NCBI GenBank assembly: GCA_000985875.1 | Contig: CCRI01000003.1 | Coordinates: 310,001-374,000 of the forward strand | Length of the DNA: 64,000 bases | Direction: 5' to 3' | From: Neorhizobium galegae bv. officinalis | GTDB taxonomy: Bacteria > Pseudomonadota > Alphaproteobacteria > Rhizobiales > Rhizobiaceae | In this document: positions 28,123 through 36,470 of the stretch, piece after piece | Numbering within the stretch: position 1 is the stretch's first letter | How the letters are laid out: each line of letters starts with the position of its first letter | Notes under the pieces: model-generated | The model's input: the letters and a program-made list of their open reading frames with translations, nothing else | What the model was told of the DNA's origin: nothing | Database searches by the model: none | Position numbers and translations under genes: made by a program

Positions 28123-28569
28123 ATGGCTTACAAGAACGACGATATCTTTTCCTTCTCCGCTTTCGATCCGTCCAAGATGACCGAAGGCTTCCGCGACTTC
28201 GCCGAAAAGGGTGCCACCCAGTCTCGCGAAGCCTATGCTAAGATGAAATCCGCTGCCGAGGAAGCCACCAAGACGGTGGAATCCACAATGCAGACCGCCC
28301 AGTCCGGTTCTGTCGAGCTCGGCCTCAAGGCGATCGACGCTCTGCGCACCAATGCCGAGATCTCGCTGGCCCACATGGAAAAGCTGCTCGGCGTGAAGTC
28401 CTTTGCCGAACTGATCGAACTGCAGACCGGTTTCATCCGCAAGCAGGCTGAAATCACGGTTGAGCAGGCCAAGTCCATGCAGGACACCGCCCGCAAGATC
28501 GTCGAAGACGTGACGAAGCCGGGCAAGGAAGCCGCTGAAAAGGTCATGACGACCTTCAAGGCTGCCTAA
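28123..28569 (+). CDS. phaP: Phasin family protein
   Basis: This is a polyhydroxyalkanoate granule-coating protein of 148 residues. It is almost wholly helical, Ala/Lys/Glu-rich, with the phasin_2 pattern FAEKGATQSREAYAKMKSAA and FAELIELQTGFIRKQAE. It controls granule size and covers the PHB surface. The upstream region has a sigma70 promoter overlapped by PhaR-like operators, and a terminator follows 26 nt after the stop. The acetoacetyl-CoA synthetase 4.5 kb away handles the end product of PHB breakdown. Confidence 0.92.
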   Translation: MAYKNDDIFSFSAFDPSKMTEGFRDFAEKGATQSREAYAKMKSAAEEATKTVESTMQTAQSGSVELGLKAIDALRTNAEISLAHMEKLLGVKSFAELIELQTGFIRKQAEITVEQAKSMQDTARKIVEDVTKPGKEAAEKVMTTFKAA

Positions 28570-28695: not shown

Positions 28696-28772
28696 GCGGT
28701 TGTAGCTCAGTTGGTTAGAGCGCAGGTTTGTGGCACCTGAGGTCGGAGGTTCGAGACCCCCCAACCGTACCA
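28696..28772 (+). tRNA. tRNA-His (GTG anticodon)
   Basis: The 77-nt gene folds as a cloverleaf: acceptor stem GCGGTTG / CAACCGT, D-loop AGCTCAGTTGGTTAGAGC, anticodon GTG in the loop TTTGTGGC, T-loop GGTTCGAGACC, and an encoded 3' CCA. The base before the acceptor stem is T (28695) and the discriminator is A (28769), so the otherwise universal G-1:C73 pair is absent, as known for many alphaproteobacteria. A plausible promoter is CTTGCA (28637-28642) with TATGTG (28661-28666). Confidence 0.95.
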
Positions 28773-28938: not shown

Positions 28939-29583
28939 TCACCAGCGCAGCAGCCGGGGTCCCAGAAGCGAGCCGAGAATTCCTGTCAGCAGGATGCCGA
29001 GCGAGTACCAGATGAGTACGAAAGGCATGCCGTTCTCCGTGCAGAACCAGGAATAGACCCAGGCACCGGCAGCGCCGGCGGCGATGCCGGCGATGAAGCC
29101 CGTGAGCCTCAGGTCTGTCGGCGCGCCGCGGCGCAGCGCCCACACGTTCCCTGCAAACACCGGAAGTGCGAAGAGGAAGATCAGCAGAGGGCAATGCAGC
29201 GCCGACGATCCGATGATCAAGGTGCGGTAGGTCTCGGCCGGCGACATCATCAGTTGGCTGACGGCAACCACGGTCATGATCGCGACGATCGCCGCGGCGA
29301 ACGGGAAGAACCGCCCCCTGGAACCGTCGGGCCGCGCCAGTTGGTAGGCGGCGAGGAAGGCGGCGGTCGCCAGCAGCGCGTTATAGGCGGACTTGATCCA
29401 GAACACCGGCAACATCAGAGCTTCCGCCATGTCTATGCGCAAGCCGAGGATCGCCAGCATCAGCACCAGCGACACGGCGAGCGCCGGCAGGGCGCCGGCC
29501 GCGAAGCGCCGCGCCAGCGCATGGCGTGGCACCGGCTTCAAATCCCCCACCAGGGCGTCGATGATGTCGTCCGTCTTTCTCAC
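28939..29583 (-). CDS. nrsF: NrsF/DUF1109 transmembrane anti-sigma factor
   Basis: This is an inner-membrane anti-sigma factor of 214 residues with six hydrophobic segments and a short cytoplasmic N-terminus (RKTDDIIDALVGDLKPVPR) expected to hold SigF. It has exactly two cysteines, Cys131 and Cys181; in the Caulobacter SigF system two conserved cysteines of this protein are needed for stress sensing. The start is GTG at 29583, overlapping the sigF TGA by 4 nt (GTGA), so the two genes are translationally coupled. In Azospira the homologue is the negative regulator of the SigF chlorine-stress regulon. Confidence 0.88.
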   Translation of the reverse strand: MRKTDDIIDALVGDLKPVPRHALARRFAAGALPALAVSLVLMLAILGLRIDMAEALMLPVFWIKSAYNALLATAAFLAAYQLARPDGSRGRFFPFAAAIVAIMTVVAVSQLMMSPAETYRTLIIGSSALHCPLLIFLFALPVFAGNVWALRRGAPTDLRLTGFIAGIAAGAAGAWVYSWFCTENGMPFVLIWYSLGILLTGILGSLLGPRLLRW

Positions 29584-30128
29584 TTTCCGCCTCGCAATTT
29601 CTCCGCCAGTGCCTTGAGCCCTCTATGAATGCCGACCTTGACGGCCGATTCCGATTGGCCGGTCCGGCTTGCCGTGTCCGCCACGGATTGCCCTTCGAGC
29701 TTCACCTGTCGGATCAATTCCCGCTGTTTCGCCGGCAGGCCGTCCAGGAGCCGTTCGACATCCATCCGCGCCGTCAGGCTTTCCTCGTTGTAGTCGCTCT
29801 CGAAATCGTCGCCGAGTTCCGTTTCCGCCATCATCCGGCCGCCGCGGCCGCGATGGTGGTCGATCAGCTTGTAGCGGGCGATCGAGAAGAACCATGCAGT
29901 AAACGGCCGCTCGCGATCGTAGGTTTCGCGGCGCGAATGCAGCGCCAGCAACGTCTCCTGAACGAGGTCTTCCATGTCCGCTTTCGTCGCAGCAGCCATT
30001 CGGCGGCTGTAATATCCGACAAGCAGGACGCGCACCGCGTTGAGCAAACGCCGATAGGCGGCCTCGTCCCCATCAAGAGACAGAAGCATCAGGGCCTTCA
30101 GGGCTTCTTCCGAATGGGTGCTCGTCAT
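29580..30128 (-). CDS. sigF: ECF-family RNA polymerase sigma factor SigF
   Basis: This is an ECF sigma factor of about 182 residues. Region 2 contains DLVQETLLALHSRRETYDRE and TAWFFSIARYKLIDHHR; region 4 contains LLDGLPAKQRELIRQVKLEG, then GQSESAVKVGIHRGLKALAE. It is paired with the anti-sigma NrsF downstream. The ATG at 30128 is taken as the start; a TTG at 30137 and an ATG at 30089 are also in frame. The putative autoregulatory promoter (30144-30168) ends so close that the mRNA would have a leader of only about 10 nt or start near the TTG. Predicted targets are itself and the divergent Met-rich peptide gene. Confidence 0.9.
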   Translation of the reverse strand: MTSTHSEEALKALMLLSLDGDEAAYRRLLNAVRVLLVGYYSRRMAAATKADMEDLVQETLLALHSRRETYDRERPFTAWFFSIARYKLIDHHRGRGGRMMAETELGDDFESDYNEESLTARMDVERLLDGLPAKQRELIRQVKLEGQSVADTASRTGQSESAVKVGIHRGLKALAEKLRGGK

Positions 30129-30143
30129 GCTGTTCAATGATTA

Positions 30144-30168
30144 TTCGGAAAAGCACGTAAACGGTTAC
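30144..30168 (-). promoter_or_regulatory. ECF (SigF) promoter of sigF-nrsF
   Basis: Read on the minus strand, GTAACC (30168-30163) is followed after exactly 15 bp by CGAA (30147-30144). This matches the GTAACC / CGAA elements I recall for Caulobacter SigF. It lies directly upstream of sigF and implies autoregulation. The same element pair with the same spacing drives the divergent peptide gene. Confidence 0.65.
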
Positions 30169-30223
30169 ATCCGGAACGGAAAATATCCCGGATGCAACCG
30201 GCCTATCACATAACCGTGAGGCT

Positions 30224-30248
30224 GTAACGACTTTCTGGCCGGGTCGAA
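30224..30248 (+). promoter_or_regulatory. ECF (SigF) promoter of the Met-rich peptide operon
   Basis: GTAACG (30224-30229) is separated by 15 bp from CGAA (30245-30248), about 66 nt before the peptide start codon. Only the last base of the -35 element differs from the sigF promoter. The two sites diverge across the 186-bp intergenic region, so one sigma factor could fire both directions. Confidence 0.65.
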
Positions 30249-30313
30249 TTGATGGTTGTGAGCCCTCGGCAGGCAGCCGGCGGACACATCGATTGATCCC
30301 AGGAGGGCATCCC

Positions 30314-30577
30314 ATGACCAAGCTTCTTTCCAGCCTCGCAGCCTGCACCCTTGTTGTCGGCCTTTCGCTTGCCGGCGCGGCGAACGCCCAGAGCAGCATG
30401 AACTCCGACGCAATGAAGAAGGACTCCATGAAGACCGACGCCATGAAACCGGATGCTATGAAGAAGGACCAGATGGCGACCGGCAGCACCAAGACCGACT
30501 GCATGCACAAGGCGGGCATGGAAAAGGACGCGATGAAAAAGTCCGACATGATGAAGGCCTGCGACGCGATGAAGTAA
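30314..30577 (+). CDS. mrpX: Periplasmic methionine-rich peptide (MXKDX repeat protein)
   Basis: This 87-residue precursor has a Sec signal peptide (LLSSLAACTLVVGLSLAGAA, cleavage probably after ANA at residue 25). The mature 62 residues contain 12 Met, spaced every five residues at 29, 34, 39, 44, 49, 54, 64, 69, 74 and 79, plus 80 and 86. The repeat unit is D-x-M-K-x. Lysine and aspartate fill the rest; two Cys (63 and 83) are present. In Azospira suillum the comparable MrpX is a sacrificial scavenger of hypochlorite, recycled by a periplasmic methionine sulfoxide reductase. AGGAGG lies 8 nt before the ATG. The next two genes encode the probable reductase. Confidence 0.82.
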   Translation: MTKLLSSLAACTLVVGLSLAGAANAQSSMNSDAMKKDSMKTDAMKPDAMKKDQMATGSTKTDCMHKAGMEKDAMKKSDMMKACDAMK

Positions 30578-30672
30578 CGCCATGAAATGACCCTGCCGCG
30601 GCCGCTGAAACTTTCTGTGTGGCGGCCGCGTCTATTTGCCGGAGCCCGCTTCCCGCATTCGGAGGAAACACC

Positions 30673-31515
30673 ATGGCCACGATCGATGCCGGCGCTGCGA
30701 CCGGCCGGACGGTCATCTACCGCCACAGCCTGCTAGTGCGCTTGTCGCACTGGGTGAATGTGCTCTGCATGACCGTGCTGCTGTTCAGCGGCCTGCAGAT
30801 ATTCAATGCGCATCCGGCGCTCTACTGGGGCCAATATGGCGCGGACAACGATCCCTCCTTCATTTCCACGGAGGCGGTCGAGGATGGCGGCAAGGCGAAG
30901 GGCCTCACGCATGTCGGGTCGCTCACCTTCGACACGACCGGATTTCTCGGTGTATCCGACGTGGACGGCGAGGCGACCGCGCGAGGGTTCCCCGAATGGC
31001 TGACCATCCCGAGCTATCAGGACCTCGCAAGCGGCCGGCGATGGCATTTCTTCTTTGCCTGGTTGTTCGTCATCAACGGCTTCATCTATCTCGCCTATGG
31101 GCTTTTGAGCCGCCATTTCCGCCGCGATCTTCTGCCGGCCCGGGATGAGCTGACGCCCGCCCATATCGGCCACGAAATCGTCAATCACGCCCGGCTGCGG
31201 TTTGCGAAAGGGCCGGAGGCGCGGCACTACAACACGCTGCAGAAGCTCACCTATGTAGCTGTGATCGTTCTGCTCCTACCGCTGATGATCCTCACGGGGC
31301 TCACAATGTCGCCCGGCTTCAATGCCGTGGCACCCTGGCTGCTCGATGTCTTCGGCGGCCGCCAATCGGCCCGCACGATCCATTTCCTGACCGCGTTTTC
31401 GCTGGTCGCCTTCGTGGTGCTCCACGTCGCGATGGTGATCCTCTCGGGCGTCTTCAACAATCTGCGTTCGATGATCACCGGCTACTACGCCATCGAACAG
31501 GAGGACAAAAAATGA
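30673..31515 (+). CDS. Membrane cytochrome b (YedZ-like electron donor)
   Basis: This is an integral-membrane cytochrome b of 280 residues in the cytochrome b561/formate dehydrogenase gamma group. Membrane segments occur at about residues 20-40, 130-155, 190-215 and 235-260. Histidines that could bind haem b are in RLSHWVNVLCM, GRRWHFFFAWLF, ARTIHFLTAF and FVVLHVAMVI. It should pass quinol electrons to the periplasmic molybdoenzyme encoded next. The start ATG 30673 has GGAGGA upstream. Its TGA overlaps the next ATG by 4 nt (ATGA), so stoichiometric expression of the pair is likely. Confidence 0.85.
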   Translation: MATIDAGAATGRTVIYRHSLLVRLSHWVNVLCMTVLLFSGLQIFNAHPALYWGQYGADNDPSFISTEAVEDGGKAKGLTHVGSLTFDTTGFLGVSDVDGEATARGFPEWLTIPSYQDLASGRRWHFFFAWLFVINGFIYLAYGLLSRHFRRDLLPARDELTPAHIGHEIVNHARLRFAKGPEARHYNTLQKLTYVAVIVLLLPLMILTGLTMSPGFNAVAPWLLDVFGGRQSARTIHFLTAFSLVAFVVLHVAMVILSGVFNNLRSMITGYYAIEQEDKK

Positions 31516-32288
31516 GCAGCATCCTCACCCGCCGCCGTTTCCTGATCGGCGCGACCATGACGGCCTCGGCGCTCGGCTTGAGCGGCTGCGACGCGCTTGT
31601 CGAAAGCGACCGGACGAAATCGGTGCTCAGGATCGCCGAGGGGCTTTCGATGAAAACCCAGCGTTTCCTGCTCGGCGACAACGCGCTGGCCCGCGAGTTC
31701 ACGGAGGCGGATCTGTCGCCGGTCTTCCGCGCCAATGGTACCAGCATGCCGGACAATCCCCAATATCTCGACTGGATGAACCGGCAGTTCTCGACGTGGA
31801 AACTGGAAATCGGCGGCCTGGTCGAAAAGCCAATGCAGCTGTCGCTTGCCGACCTGAAGGCGCTGCCGGCCCGCACCCAGATCACCCGCCACGACTGCGT
31901 CGAAGGCTGGAGCGCCATCGGCAAATGGACCGGCGTGCCGCTCGGCGCGCTGCTCAAGACGGTCGGCCTGAAGCCGGAAGCCCGCTACATCGTCTTCCAT
32001 TGCGCCGACGAATACGAGAAGTCGCTCGATGGTAGCGGCTGGTATTACGAGAGCATCGATCTGGTCGATGCCTTCCATCCGCAGACCATTCTCGCCCACA
32101 CGATGAACGGCCGGGATCTCGAAGTCGCGCATGGCGCGCCGCTGCGGCTGCGTGTCGAGCGCCAGCTCGGCTACAAGCAGGCGAAGTATCTGACCCGCAT
32201 CGAGGCGGTGGCCGATCTCGGTCGCCTTTATGGCGGCAAAGGCGGTTTCTGGGAGGATCGCGGCTACGAATGGTATGCCGGCATCTGA
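31512..32288 (+). CDS. Molybdopterin-dependent oxidoreductase, YedY/MsrP-like
   Basis: This is a 258-residue sulfite-oxidase-fold enzyme. The N-terminus carries a twin-arginine signal (TRRRFLIGATMTASALG) ending in a lipobox-like LSGC, so it may be a Tat-exported lipoprotein. Cys129 in TRHDCVEGWSAIGKWTGVPL is the expected molybdenum ligand. Related YedY1 in Azospira and MsrP in Escherichia coli reduce periplasmic methionine sulfoxide. The cytochrome b before it and the Met-rich peptide before that make the same role very likely here: repair of the oxidised peptide. Sulfite oxidation is the main alternative. Confidence 0.87.
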   Translation: MSSILTRRRFLIGATMTASALGLSGCDALVESDRTKSVLRIAEGLSMKTQRFLLGDNALAREFTEADLSPVFRANGTSMPDNPQYLDWMNRQFSTWKLEIGGLVEKPMQLSLADLKALPARTQITRHDCVEGWSAIGKWTGVPLGALLKTVGLKPEARYIVFHCADEYEKSLDGSGWYYESIDLVDAFHPQTILAHTMNGRDLEVAHGAPLRLRVERQLGYKQAKYLTRIEAVADLGRLYGGKGGFWEDRGYEWYAGI

Positions 32289-32294
32289 AGAGAC

Positions 32295-34205
32295 TTAGGT
32301 TCTCGCCTGTAGCGGAGCAACTCTCGGAAGCCGGATGATGAATCGGGTGCCGCTGGCCTCGCCGGCGGGCGGGCTCTCGACGGCGATCGATCCGCCGAGA
32401 ACTTCGGTGACGATCTGATGGACGATATGCAGCCCGAGGCCCGTGCCGCCGCTGTGACGGGCCGTGGAAAAGAAGGGTTCGAATATCTTCTGGATGTCCG
32501 TCTCGTTGATCCCGCGGCCATCGTCGGTGAACTCGATGAGGACCTGATCCGCCAGTGTTCGGACATCGATCGTGATCATGCCGGGTTTGCCCGCATCGAA
32601 GGCGTGCAGCAGCGAATTGTTGAGGAGGTTCGACAAGACCTGGGCAAACGGCCCCGGATAGGTCGTGATCGCCAGATCATTGGGCACGTTCAACGTCAGG
32701 CCGATGCCGGTGCTGGTGTCCCATCTGCGCAGCCGCGGATCGGCATCGGGCATGAAGGCGGCGAGATCGATGTCCCGCCGCTCCAATGTGGCGCGGTCGA
32801 CTGCAACCTGTTTGAAACGTTGAACCAGCGCAGTGCAGCGGTGGATGGCATCGCGCACCAGGTCGAGGCTGGTATCGCTGTCTGCGATATAGAGGTCGAG
32901 GTCCGAACGGCGCAGCCCCGCTGCGATCCTTTCCTTGAAAAGCCTGAGATCCCTGGCAACCTTGCTGAGCACGAGCGCCGCACTTCCAAGCGGCGTGTTC
33001 ATCTCATGGGCGACGCCGGCAACCATCAGGCCCAGCGACGACAGCCGTTCGGCTCGCGCAAGTTCCCGTTGGGTCACGTTCAGTTTTTCATTGGTCTCGC
33101 GCAGCGTCTTGTTCGTGTCCTCCATTTGCCGTGCCCATTCCGCCTCGGCCTCCATGCCGTTGGCCAGGCGGCCGGTTACCGCAAGCGCCACCACGGCAAG
33201 GATTGCCGCCACCATGCCGAGAATGAGTTTCCCCGTTGTTTCCTGGTCATTGATCACGCTCGCCGAGTCACGGGCGAGCAGATAGAGGTCAGCATCCGAG
33301 GCACGCCTTTCCACGACCTCCCCGGTTGTCAGCAGGCCCGTGCCGGGCTGGAAGCGACGGTAGTTCCAATCTCCGTCCCCGCTGCCGAAAAGCCCTCTGT
33401 CCCCCTTGTTGATCGCCCGCAACATCTCCGCCTCAGCCGCGCCGGGCGCTGGAGCCCCGAGCTGCCAGCCCCAGTTCGCAGCCGCATCTGGCCCTTGGAC
33501 CCAGTATCCGGCCTGGTTCATCAGATGGAGTTCGACGCTCCTGTCGAGCCGTTTCAGGCGTTCGAGCAATCGCGTGGCGCGGTAGTTGATGACGATGATG
33601 CCTTGTCTGACGCCGTTGCTGAAGACGGGGCTTGCAACGCGCAATGTCGGCAGATGAGGAACCTCGACCACGCCGTTTTCGACATTGAGGTCGAGGGCGG
33701 AAAAATACAGGCCGTTCAGCGGCAGCTGAATTGCATCGCGAAAATAGGGCCTGTCCGCCTTGTTCTGCAACTGCTCCCTGCTCACGACCACCGGTTCTGC
33801 GCCGCCGCGACGGTTGACGCGCAGCCGTTCATGACCGTCCGTATCCAGCCAGCGTACCTGATCGTAATCAGGTGAGCTGGCGGCGAAGCTCTGGAATATC
33901 TCAACGCTTACCGGAGCAGGCCGAGTTGTCGGCTCGCCGAAGCGCGATTGCAGATCGGCCAGAAACAGGGCGTCGCGGCCCAGTCGGTCCAAGGCCCGGC
34001 TGAGGATGTCATACCCTTGCGACAGGGTCTCCTCCCTGTTGCGGATCTGAGGTTCCCGCGCGTTCGCGCCGATCTGATACCAGAGCAATGGAACGCCGAT
34101 GCCAAGCCCGACGGCCCAGGGTACCACGAAGATGGCAAGCCGCTTGCGGTGGCGATAAATGGCCCGGACGGAGGAAAGCATGCGGTGTGCAGGCGCGCGG
34201 ACCAT
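32295..34205 (-). CDS. Cache-domain sensor histidine kinase
   Basis: This is a membrane histidine kinase of 636 residues. One membrane segment near the N-terminus (LAIFVVPWAVGLGIGVPLLW) precedes a large periplasmic double-Cache-like domain (about 45-300), a second membrane segment (KLILGMVAAILAVVALAVTG), a coiled linker, and the kinase core. His400 lies in VAGVAHEMNTPLGSA; the N-box is VLSNLLNNSLLHAFDAG and the G-boxes are FTDDGRGI and GGTGLGLHIV. It starts 7 nt after the stop of the receiver-EAL gene in the same direction, so the two form a two-component pair. The signal sensed is not evident. Confidence 0.88.
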   Translation of the reverse strand: MVRAPAHRMLSSVRAIYRHRKRLAIFVVPWAVGLGIGVPLLWYQIGANAREPQIRNREETLSQGYDILSRALDRLGRDALFLADLQSRFGEPTTRPAPVSVEIFQSFAASSPDYDQVRWLDTDGHERLRVNRRGGAEPVVVSREQLQNKADRPYFRDAIQLPLNGLYFSALDLNVENGVVEVPHLPTLRVASPVFSNGVRQGIIVINYRATRLLERLKRLDRSVELHLMNQAGYWVQGPDAAANWGWQLGAPAPGAAEAEMLRAINKGDRGLFGSGDGDWNYRRFQPGTGLLTTGEVVERRASDADLYLLARDSASVINDQETTGKLILGMVAAILAVVALAVTGRLANGMEAEAEWARQMEDTNKTLRETNEKLNVTQRELARAERLSSLGLMVAGVAHEMNTPLGSAALVLSKVARDLRLFKERIAAGLRRSDLDLYIADSDTSLDLVRDAIHRCTALVQRFKQVAVDRATLERRDIDLAAFMPDADPRLRRWDTSTGIGLTLNVPNDLAITTYPGPFAQVLSNLLNNSLLHAFDAGKPGMITIDVRTLADQVLIEFTDDGRGINETDIQKIFEPFFSTARHSGGTGLGLHIVHQIVTEVLGGSIAVESPPAGEASGTRFIIRLPRVAPLQART

Positions 34206-34211
34206 CGGGCG

Positions 34212-36470
34212 CTACACCATCTTGACCGGCGAGCCTTGCAACCTCGCCAGGAATTGCTCGAAGGGCTCCGGGCGAGCGTAAAGATAACCCTGCGCCAGGA
34301 TGCATTTTCTCGACCGGAGCCATTCCGCCTGCTGCTCGGTCTCGACGCCCTCGGCGAGGATGCGCATGTTCATGCGCTCGCCAAGCTGAATGATCATCTC
34401 AACGATCATGTCACTCTGACTGGACTCTCCCAGGCCGGCGATGAACGACGGGTCGATCTTGAGCGTGGCGGCCTCGAACGACCGGAGTTTCGCCAGCGAA
34501 GAATAGCCCGTGCCGAAATCGTCGATGGCGATCGCAAAACCCTCGCGCCTGAGAAGGGAGAGCATGTCGGTGGCGTGCTGATGCTCCTCCATCGCCACCG
34601 TCTCCGTAATTTCCAGTTCCAGCCGATCCGGCGACAGGCCATATCGGCGTGTGGTGGCGATCAGTTCGTCTATGAATTCTTTTCGCCCAAGCTGTATCGG
34701 CGAGACGTTGACGGCGACGGTAACGTTTGCGAAACCCGCTTCGCCCATGGAGCGGAGCGCGCTGCATGCCTGCTCCAGGATCTGCTGACCCAGGGGCACG
34801 ATCAGCCCGTTCGCCTCCGCAAGCGGAATGAAATCTGCCGGAAATATGACCGAACCGTCCGGACGCGTCCAGCGCGCCAGGATTTCGGCGCCGACGATCC
34901 GATTGTCGGTCAGGTCGATCTGTGGCTGGAATACGACGCTGATTTCCCGGTTGAGCAGGGCCTTGTAAAGCTGCTGCGAAAGAGCGAACCGGCGGCGCGT
35001 CTCGTGCTCGACATTGGGGTCGTACTCGATGAGTTGCCCGCTCGTCCCCTTCAGTCCGGCCTTTTTAAGCAGCAGAAGTCCCGCCGCAATGACGCTTTGA
35101 GCCGACGTGAAATGATTGAGATCGAGGGAGGCCGCCTCTGCTCCGAAGAACAGGGCTTCGGGCGAGTGGGCGCCCGCTTCGAGACGGTTTACATATTCGA
35201 TCCGCACGAGATATTCCGGTCCGAGCACGGCAAACACGTCTTCATGCAAACGCGCGATCATGCAGGGCGGTGGAAAGGCCGCCGCGAGTCGCTTCACGAA
35301 AGCGCGCAGCAGGTGATCGCCCTGTTCGACGCCGAGAGAGACGCAGCTTCTCGCATACTGGTTCAGTTCGATGAACAGGACCTTCCGTCTGCGGGGTGGG
35401 GGAAGCTCGATTACCGCTTGAATGCCGCGCTTCAGCGCGTTGCCGTTCGCGATTTCGAGCAGACCGTCTTCGTAGGCGATGCGGTCGAGCTGGCTGGTCA
35501 GTGCCACGTTGATCAGGCCGGTGCCGATATTGGTCGCGAAGACCCGCAGCAATTCCCGCTCCGTGTCGTCGATTCGCCTGTTTGTCGCGATGTAGGCGGC
35601 CGCAGGAGGTGCGACTGCCTGGCCCGGGAAAAACAGAACCTGCGCTGTCGCTGTTTCGATACTCGCCTGCTCGTCCAAAGAGCGCTGGATCAGGTCGCGG
35701 ATGGATACGTCATCGATGGTATCGAGGGTCTGGTTGAGGGCCGAAGCGAACCGCCCGGCCGAGCCGATGATCTTCGGCGGCTGTTCGCGGTCACGCCCGC
35801 GGACGCAGACGATGCCATCTTCGCGGACACCGAGAAGCGCCGCCAGTTCGTGGATCATCCGGCGGGAGAAGTCCTCGAATCCCGATGACCTCGCCAAGCT
35901 ATTGCTCGCCTCCACAATGCTCTGGAGGCCCCGGCGCGCGCGGTTCAGCACATCGATCTGCTCGAAGGTCCTGAGATTTGCAGTGAGAATGCTGTGAAGC
36001 CGCTCATTGGTCAGGTCGGTCTTCAGCCAATAATCGGCGATATCATAGGTCTCGAGCGACGATTGCATCGGCGCGATGCCCGGTTGCCCCGTGAGCAGCA
36101 CGATACGCAGCTGCGAGTTGCCGAGAACTTCGCGGATCGTGCGAACCAGCCGGAGCCCCGCATCGTCCGTCTCCATCACGACATCGAGCAGCAGGACCGC
36201 GATCGAAGGCCTTTCGAGCAGAAGCTTGGCCGCCTCGTTGGCAGAAGAGGCCATCAGTATCCGCGGCGCCACGCTGCGGTAGGTGAAACCCGAAAGCGAG
36301 AGCCTGAGGGAGTTCTGGAACATCTCGTCGTCATCGACGCTCATGATGGTGAAATCCATCATCTCCGCCTGGAATTGGTCGGGTGAAGCCCCCGTCCGGG
36401 CAGCGGGCTCCGGATGAAATTCGAAGAGATCCTGAGAATTCTTTTCTTGTTCGATATCGCCCACGGACAC
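34212..36470 (-). CDS. Response regulator with DUF3369, degenerate GGDEF and EAL domains
   Basis: This is a cyclic-di-GMP phosphodiesterase candidate of 752 residues. A receiver domain (about 40-165) has Asp46-48 and the phosphoacceptor Asp96 in VLLLDVVMETD. A DUF3369 segment follows (about 170-340). Next comes a GGDEF-like domain whose active-site motif is HEDVF (409-413) rather than GGDEF, so no cyclase activity is expected. The EAL domain (about 495-750) keeps the catalytic set: Glu529 in EILARW, VNVSPIQL, ELEITET, DDFGTGYSS, LKID and AEGVET. Start GTG 36470 is preceded by GGGGG. It is transcribed ahead of its probable kinase at 32295-34205. Confidence 0.9.
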   Translation of the reverse strand: MSVGDIEQEKNSQDLFEFHPEPAARTGASPDQFQAEMMDFTIMSVDDDEMFQNSLRLSLSGFTYRSVAPRILMASSANEAAKLLLERPSIAVLLLDVVMETDDAGLRLVRTIREVLGNSQLRIVLLTGQPGIAPMQSSLETYDIADYWLKTDLTNERLHSILTANLRTFEQIDVLNRARRGLQSIVEASNSLARSSGFEDFSRRMIHELAALLGVREDGIVCVRGRDREQPPKIIGSAGRFASALNQTLDTIDDVSIRDLIQRSLDEQASIETATAQVLFFPGQAVAPPAAAYIATNRRIDDTERELLRVFATNIGTGLINVALTSQLDRIAYEDGLLEIANGNALKRGIQAVIELPPPRRRKVLFIELNQYARSCVSLGVEQGDHLLRAFVKRLAAAFPPPCMIARLHEDVFAVLGPEYLVRIEYVNRLEAGAHSPEALFFGAEAASLDLNHFTSAQSVIAAGLLLLKKAGLKGTSGQLIEYDPNVEHETRRRFALSQQLYKALLNREISVVFQPQIDLTDNRIVGAEILARWTRPDGSVIFPADFIPLAEANGLIVPLGQQILEQACSALRSMGEAGFANVTVAVNVSPIQLGRKEFIDELIATTRRYGLSPDRLELEITETVAMEEHQHATDMLSLLRREGFAIAIDDFGTGYSSLAKLRSFEAATLKIDPSFIAGLGESSQSDMIVEMIIQLGERMNMRILAEGVETEQQAEWLRSRKCILAQGYLYARPEPFEQFLARLQGSPVKMV

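Follow-up and report, generated by a model that had tools for sequence, protein, structure and literature searches.

A probable periplasmic methionine-cycling defence locus of the SigF/NrsF type in Neorhizobium galegae, and the repair enzymes that accompany its methionine-rich peptide

We analyzed a 64,000-nucleotide stretch of the genome of Neorhizobium galegae bv. officinalis (contig CCRI01000003.1, positions 310,001 to 374,000, forward strand; hereafter the window, whose own numbering is used below), which carries a five-gene locus built around a secreted methionine-rich peptide. Genes for an extracytoplasmic function (ECF) sigma factor and an NrsF-type anti-sigma factor lie on the reverse strand, and are divergent from a compact same-strand row that runs from the peptide through a cytochrome b to a YedY-like molybdopterin oxidoreductase. 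The stop of the sigma gene overlaps the start of nrsF, and the gene after the YedY-like open reading frame, which begins at 32295, is convergent. An earlier note on this DNA had placed these five genes here; all five reading frames are indeed open, and the families are as it named them, save that of the cytochrome. The locus proteins are 90-97% identical to those of Neorhizobium tomejilense (L128) and 92-95% identical to those of N. galegae (L191; L numbers designate individual loci).

The sigma factor (29580..30128, reverse strand, 182 residues from ATG) matches sigma70 regions 2 and 4 (Sigma70_r2/r4), as expected from its previous description as an ECF sigma factor, and scores 177.3 bits on NF009191 against a cut-off of 171. 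It adjoins an anti-sigma factor of the DUF1109 type (28939..29583, reverse strand, 214 residues; PF06532, E-value 3.2e-68), in which the exactly two cysteines that had been reported, Cys131 and Cys181, are the only ones in the whole protein, and are conserved. This protein passes the wider family PF06532 (230 bits, cut-off 26.8) and falls below the NCBIfam NrsF equivalog NF042994 (149.7 bits, cut-off 300). Two GTAAC-N16-CGAA matches, identified by sequence pattern, lie between the divergent genes, one facing each side; they are the candidate promoters of sigma/nrsF (30144..30168, reverse strand) and of the peptide operon (30224..30248, forward strand), and both are close to the ECF16 consensus as given in PMC3420878 and PMC8315932. 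We label the sigma factor ECF16 (SigF-type) because of its NrsF partner and of these promoter sites, not on the basis of a classification tool.

The peptide (30314..30577, forward strand, 87 residues from ATG, with an alternative longer start at 30293) is similar to MrpX and BcrX, and exceeds the cut-off of TIGR02953, the pentapeptide MXKDX repeat protein (69.8 bits versus 41). Behind a predicted signal peptide (about 30314-30388), its 62 mature residues include 12 methionines. It had been described as carrying Met at every fifth residue, and this is borne out by counting: 8 pairs of Met occur at spacing 5, compared to 1.98 expected, a value equalled in 1 of 20,000 shuffles, so that the period of five is not due to chance. 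The M-x4-M repeats form a tail from Met29 to Met54 (30398..30475), predicted to be largely disordered, and are followed by a C-x19-C core from Cys63 to Cys83 (30500..30562), predicted to be a helical hairpin. A third Cys lies in the signal peptide, and Met, Cys and His cluster at a CMH motif.

The cytochrome (30673..31515, forward strand, 280 residues), a b561-type membrane protein and putative quinol-oxidizing partner, matches PF01292 (E-value 5e-27) and gives no match to PF01794 at E 0.001. It is thus a cytochrome b, as had been proposed, but the name YedZ that it had also received designates another family, that of YedZ/MsrQ. The MsrPQ system of E. coli consists of a PF00174 methionine sulfoxide reductase with a membrane haem partner, MsrQ, which belongs to PF01794; a PF00174 enzyme and a membrane partner are common to MsrPQ and to the locus, whereas the partner here is of PF01292. 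A separate PF00174/PF01794 pair, found in the same genome (C23:25495-25968 and C23:26325-26660), is presumably the canonical MsrPQ.

The YedY/MsrP-like enzyme (31512..32288, forward strand; PF00174, E-value 1.1e-37) has twin arginines at residue 7 within a signal resembling those of twin-arginine translocation (Tat), a lipobox LSGC at residues 23-26 (31578-31589), and the molybdenum-ligand Cys129 in HDCVEGW (codon 31896-31898), in line with its reading as a Tat-exported molybdopterin enzyme. We searched 144 loci and found a YedY match in 95 of them, the genomes being fewer, with some present twice (e.g. L065/L142, L066/L164, L105/L131). Cys129 is kept in all 92 loci that cover that position, and the lipobox Cys in 94 of the 95 (L077 is the exception). 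The lipobox Cys is therefore the rule: the LSGC motif agrees with the lipoprotein that the earlier note had seen, and which may be lipid-anchored, but not with its being a departure from the known version, which the note had thought possible.

Several published systems resemble this arrangement. As described in PMC8315932, the BcrS-AbcS/BcrXQP system of Brucella melitensis has in common with the locus an ECF16 sigma factor with a two-Cys NrsF-family anti-sigma factor, GTAA/CGAA promoters, and a divergent operon in which an MXKDX peptide gene is joined by cytochrome and methionine sulfoxide reductase genes; the anti-sigma cysteines are C129 and C179 in Brucella versus Cys131 and Cys181 here, and the promoter spacer is 16 after GTAACC versus 15 after GTAAC[CG]. 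The same source describes the Brucella peptide operon as induced by hypochlorous acid (HOCl), sigma-dependent and repressed by the anti-sigma factor, and reports that its deletion lowers survival in HOCl and leaves survival in hydrogen peroxide unchanged. In Azospira suillum, SigF/NrsF-MrpX-YedY1/YedZ1 is described as a functional set like that of the locus, in which periplasmic Met cycling acts on hypochlorite (PMC5748585, PMC4623255), and exported msrA/msrB are additionally present in some perchlorate islands (PMC4623255). The likeness to the Azospira set that had been suggested holds, since sigma factor, two-Cys NrsF, MXKDX peptide, cytochrome b, YedY-like enzyme and promoters were all found. 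According to PMC3511200, substitution of Cys131/Cys181 of Caulobacter NrsF, which bear the same numbers as the residues here, raises SigF-dependent expression, and the SigF targets include a YedY gene. The Bradyrhizobium EcfF-OsrA pair is likewise of the ECF16 type, with the same two Cys, likewise tested there, and the same promoter type, and EcfF has three Met-sulfoxide reductase genes under its control, with a product predicted to be periplasmic in one case (Blr7043); the regulon as presented in PMC3420878 names no Met-rich peptide, its hypothetical proteins being unchecked.

In order to follow the peptide across genomes, a DNA pattern for the C-x19-C core was scanned over a collection of 84,980 species, yielding 98 stretches; filtering by length and number of Met retained 86 of them as Met-rich peptides. 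Among the 12 dropped (L136, L137, L152, L156, L159, L161, L162, L163, L167, L173, L176 and L211), L161, L163 and L211 resemble genuine peptides that are cut or mis-framed. The 86 loci include Rhizobium, Neorhizobium, Agrobacterium, Shinella, Mycoplana, Phyllobacterium, Mesorhizobium, Devosia and Kaistia; the two mature Cys of the window's peptide, correctly noted before, are thus not the departure that had been considered possible. Downstream of the peptide, we found a cytochrome without MsrA in 51 loci, an exported MsrA in 16, both in one and neither in 16, with two loci cut. YedY follows in 49 of the 52 loci with a cytochrome; two others end before YedY, and the third, L155 (Rhizobium sp. 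Root708), with sigma beside the peptide, retains no more than a fragment of the cytochrome, lacks YedY over the 7.5 kb that follow, and looks like a decayed copy. The sigma gene lies divergently upstream in 47 of the 51 cytochrome-type loci, the remaining four being cut upstream. Of the 16 loci with neither enzyme adjoining, which may use a reductase encoded elsewhere, 7 are beside sigma. In 61/86 loci, 9 of the 16 peptide-MsrA loci among them, the peptide has a strict ECF16-type match in front of it, compared to 0/86 for the reversed pattern. NrsF is present in all 18 genomes in which none was seen next to the peptide (upstream DNA of 1.5 kb or more in 13, shorter in 5), against a background of 88/247 genomes in the family sample, a comparison to which we attach no probability because the genomes are related.

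Two samples chosen by enzyme complement this survey. The sample chosen by YedY took 40 of the 78 places found besides that of the window, nearly those with the highest scores; upstream of cytochrome/YedY, we found an MXKDX-like peptide in 13 and an HdeA-like Met-rich protein in 3, while at the other 24 the stretch read upstream showed no Met-rich gene. The HdeA-like protein, which is secreted and carries a Met-rich insert, takes the place of the peptide at L078, L079 and L095 (HdeA match of 21.3 bits and E 3.4e-4 at L078, cut-off 22; E 0.15 at L095). At L069, L070, L071, L076 and L077, a secreted protein of ~200 residues without Met repeats lies upstream of cytochrome/YedY; that of L077 is weakly DUF5666-like (E 0.0071). 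In the MsrA-centred sample, which was not selected for Cys, a Met-rich secreted peptide lies upstream in 8/8 Mesorhizobium-group loci. Outside the Cys survey, L103, L104, L106 and L107 show the gene row peptide-cytochrome-YedY-MsrA, with a C-x5-C pair in the peptide (DCPxGxxCDDAM). The genome of the window itself encodes an exported one-Cys MsrA (G000:C3:376623-377309, reverse strand), about 2.6 kb past the right end of the window; it belongs to the same subfamily as the MsrA that adjoins the peptide in Mesorhizobium (65% identity), and no strict ECF16-type promoter match was found in front of it.

What recurs is a Met-rich exported peptide together with some Met-sulfoxide reductase, often under an ECF16-type promoter. 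Since the two reductases placed beside one peptide family are unrelated, this pairing supports a mechanism based on sacrificial methionine; a peptide with varied Met-sulfoxide reductases is to be expected of a recyclable methionine sink, and metal binding or sulfite chemistry would account for it less easily. The locus probably defends the periplasm against reactive chlorine species, or against a similarly methionine-oxidizing agent, by cycling methionine. Gene content, domains, promoter matches and conservation are observed here; induction, and oxidation and repair of the peptide, would follow by analogy with the published relatives. NrsF would sense the oxidant through its two conserved Cys and release the sigma factor, which would then use the two GTAAC/CGAA promoters to transcribe both its own operon and the divergent one of the peptide. 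The exported peptide would be oxidized sacrificially on its regularly spaced Met, and the putatively lipid-anchored YedY-like molybdoenzyme would reduce its methionine sulfoxide, with the b561-type cytochrome as the putative donor, passing electrons from the quinol pool, so that the peptide could be reused. The interpretation of the locus as a reactive-chlorine type module of known kind, put forward in the earlier note, is thus supported. The module itself is already published in kind, and the locus places this bleach defence in Neorhizobium and its relatives, which are soil- and plant-associated bacteria. The comparative result is weightier: at least two methionine-sulfoxide reductases of unrelated kind accompany what looks like a simple Met-repeat peptide, a natural experiment that argues for sacrificial, recyclable methionine.

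Several points weigh against a methionine-cycling defence as the role of this locus. In Neorhizobium it is read from the sequence, and the likeness to the Azospira and Brucella modules was drawn from published descriptions. PF00174 also takes in sulfite oxidases. The related sigma factors differ in what they respond to: chromate, dichromate and cadmium for Caulobacter SigF (PMC3511200), and hydrogen peroxide for Bradyrhizobium EcfF (PMC3420878). RpoE7, the ECF16 sigma factor of Sinorhizobium meliloti, has a different target operon, and its gene and target are described as not responding to hydrogen peroxide, cadmium or chromate (PMC6180224); the inducer can therefore not be read from the family. 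Genome-wide, the N16 promoter pattern is not enriched (23 matches versus 64 for the reversed pattern), nor is that with N17 (25 versus 58), and the regulon proposed here is therefore limited to the two sites at the locus. The strict promoter match is absent in 25/86 Cys-core loci (5 of which have short upstream DNA), and it precedes the peptide in 0/8 Mesorhizobium-group peptide-MsrA loci, where regulation may thus differ.

If the peptide were instead mainly a buffer for copper or other soft metals, with Met, Cys and His as ligands, it would be induced by metal through NrsF, and the oxidoreductase pair would guard against metal-driven oxidation. The clustering of the three residues at CMH and the metal response of Caulobacter SigF/NrsF agree with such a role. 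However, two unrelated Met-sulfoxide reductases accompany the peptide, and no Pfam family matches that of the window at E up to 10; other Cys-core peptides gave chance-level Pfam matches only. Known Cu(I) sites have MxM or MxxM spacing, whereas Met recurs here at every fifth residue. Together with the HOCl genetics in Brucella (PMC8315932), these observations make a metal buffer unlikely.

We consider it very unlikely that the YedY-like enzyme is a sulfite oxidoreductase, or one acting on other S- or N-oxides, with mere co-regulation as the reason for its position near the peptide. PF00174 does include SorA, SorT and SoxC, to which the enzyme gives weak NCBIfam matches, but its best NCBIfam match is MsrP (NF003767, 100.6 bits, though under the cut-off of 207), its Mo-ligand Cys129 is kept in all 92 related loci that cover it, and in other genomes this position is occupied by an MsrA. 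That the Cys pair of the peptide should be the resolving dithiol of the exported one-Cys MsrA, the substrate bringing its own reductant, would fit the single Cys from the active site onward in 30/30 exported MsrA inspected (the 30 best-scoring of 77 matches, the window's own genome included), the Cys-core peptide upstream of exported MsrA in 17/86 loci and the one-Cys MsrA of the window's genome, but is highly improbable and is rejected as a requirement, since the mature Cys pair is present in only 1/8 Mesorhizobium-group peptides and absent from the 7 others that precede one-Cys MsrA, while 9/13 MXKDX-like peptides before cytochrome/YedY, a system that needs no thiol, carry it.

A methionine sponge does not explain why the C-x19-C core is conserved. 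Conservation was counted on 72 of the 86 peptides, those whose start was found by script; since the DNA pattern forces 7 positions, only the unforced ones provide independent evidence, and these are kept at D-1 (65/72), M+11 (68/72), K+12 (71/72), K+13 (67/72), K+18 (68/72) and, after the second Cys, D+21 (66/72). In the YedY-chosen sample, the core is present in 9 of the 13 MXKDX-like peptides and absent in 4. AlphaFold, run with a 47-sequence alignment, predicted two helices at residues 60-68 and 73-84 (block mean of the predicted local distance difference test, pLDDT, 80-85), with pLDDT <50 at residues 19-33, 35-38 and 45-57; as the whole-model mean is 59.9, only the core of the model is trusted. 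Prediction from the single sequence was uninformative (mean pLDDT 57.9). A search of the PDB at E up to 1 gave no relative by sequence, and the nearest solved structures, which include Tk-hefu and vicilin leader peptides, are weak matches at E 1.1 or worse, and thus indicate shape and not kinship; both are disulfide-closed helical hairpins. The core might have an alpha-hairpinin-like fold, with two helices closed by Cys pairs. The PsiF repeat, a further candidate relative, was supported by no search.

The core may thus have a structural role as a disulfide-closed helical hairpin, perhaps as a handle for a reductase. It is possible, though doubtful, that in this sizeable subset of the family the Cys-closed hairpin is the conserved element of the peptide and the Met tail its variable part, the hairpin serving as a handle for docking or as a thiol switch and so bringing the oxidized tail to the reductase at hand. 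If so, the family would be more than a disordered methionine sponge, with a hairpin kept ahead of repair systems of unrelated chemistry, one based on molybdenum and quinol, the other on an exported one-Cys MsrA. We did not meet the peptide-MsrA pairing or the Cys core in the literature searched, which included parts of PMC13272141 and PMC7464077; Melnyk 2015, outside that search, may describe them. In L147, L169 and L195 (R. subbaraonis, Mycoplana azooxidifex and R. rhizolycopersici), the Cys core is kept with few Met repeats, and no ECF16-type promoter was found.

A phasin gene (28123-28569, forward strand) and a tRNA-His (28696-28772, forward strand) lie just past the end of nrsF, and the convergent neighbours on the other side (32295-36470, reverse strand) encode a histidine kinase, then a protein that combines a weak response-regulator match with DUF3369, GGDEF and EAL.

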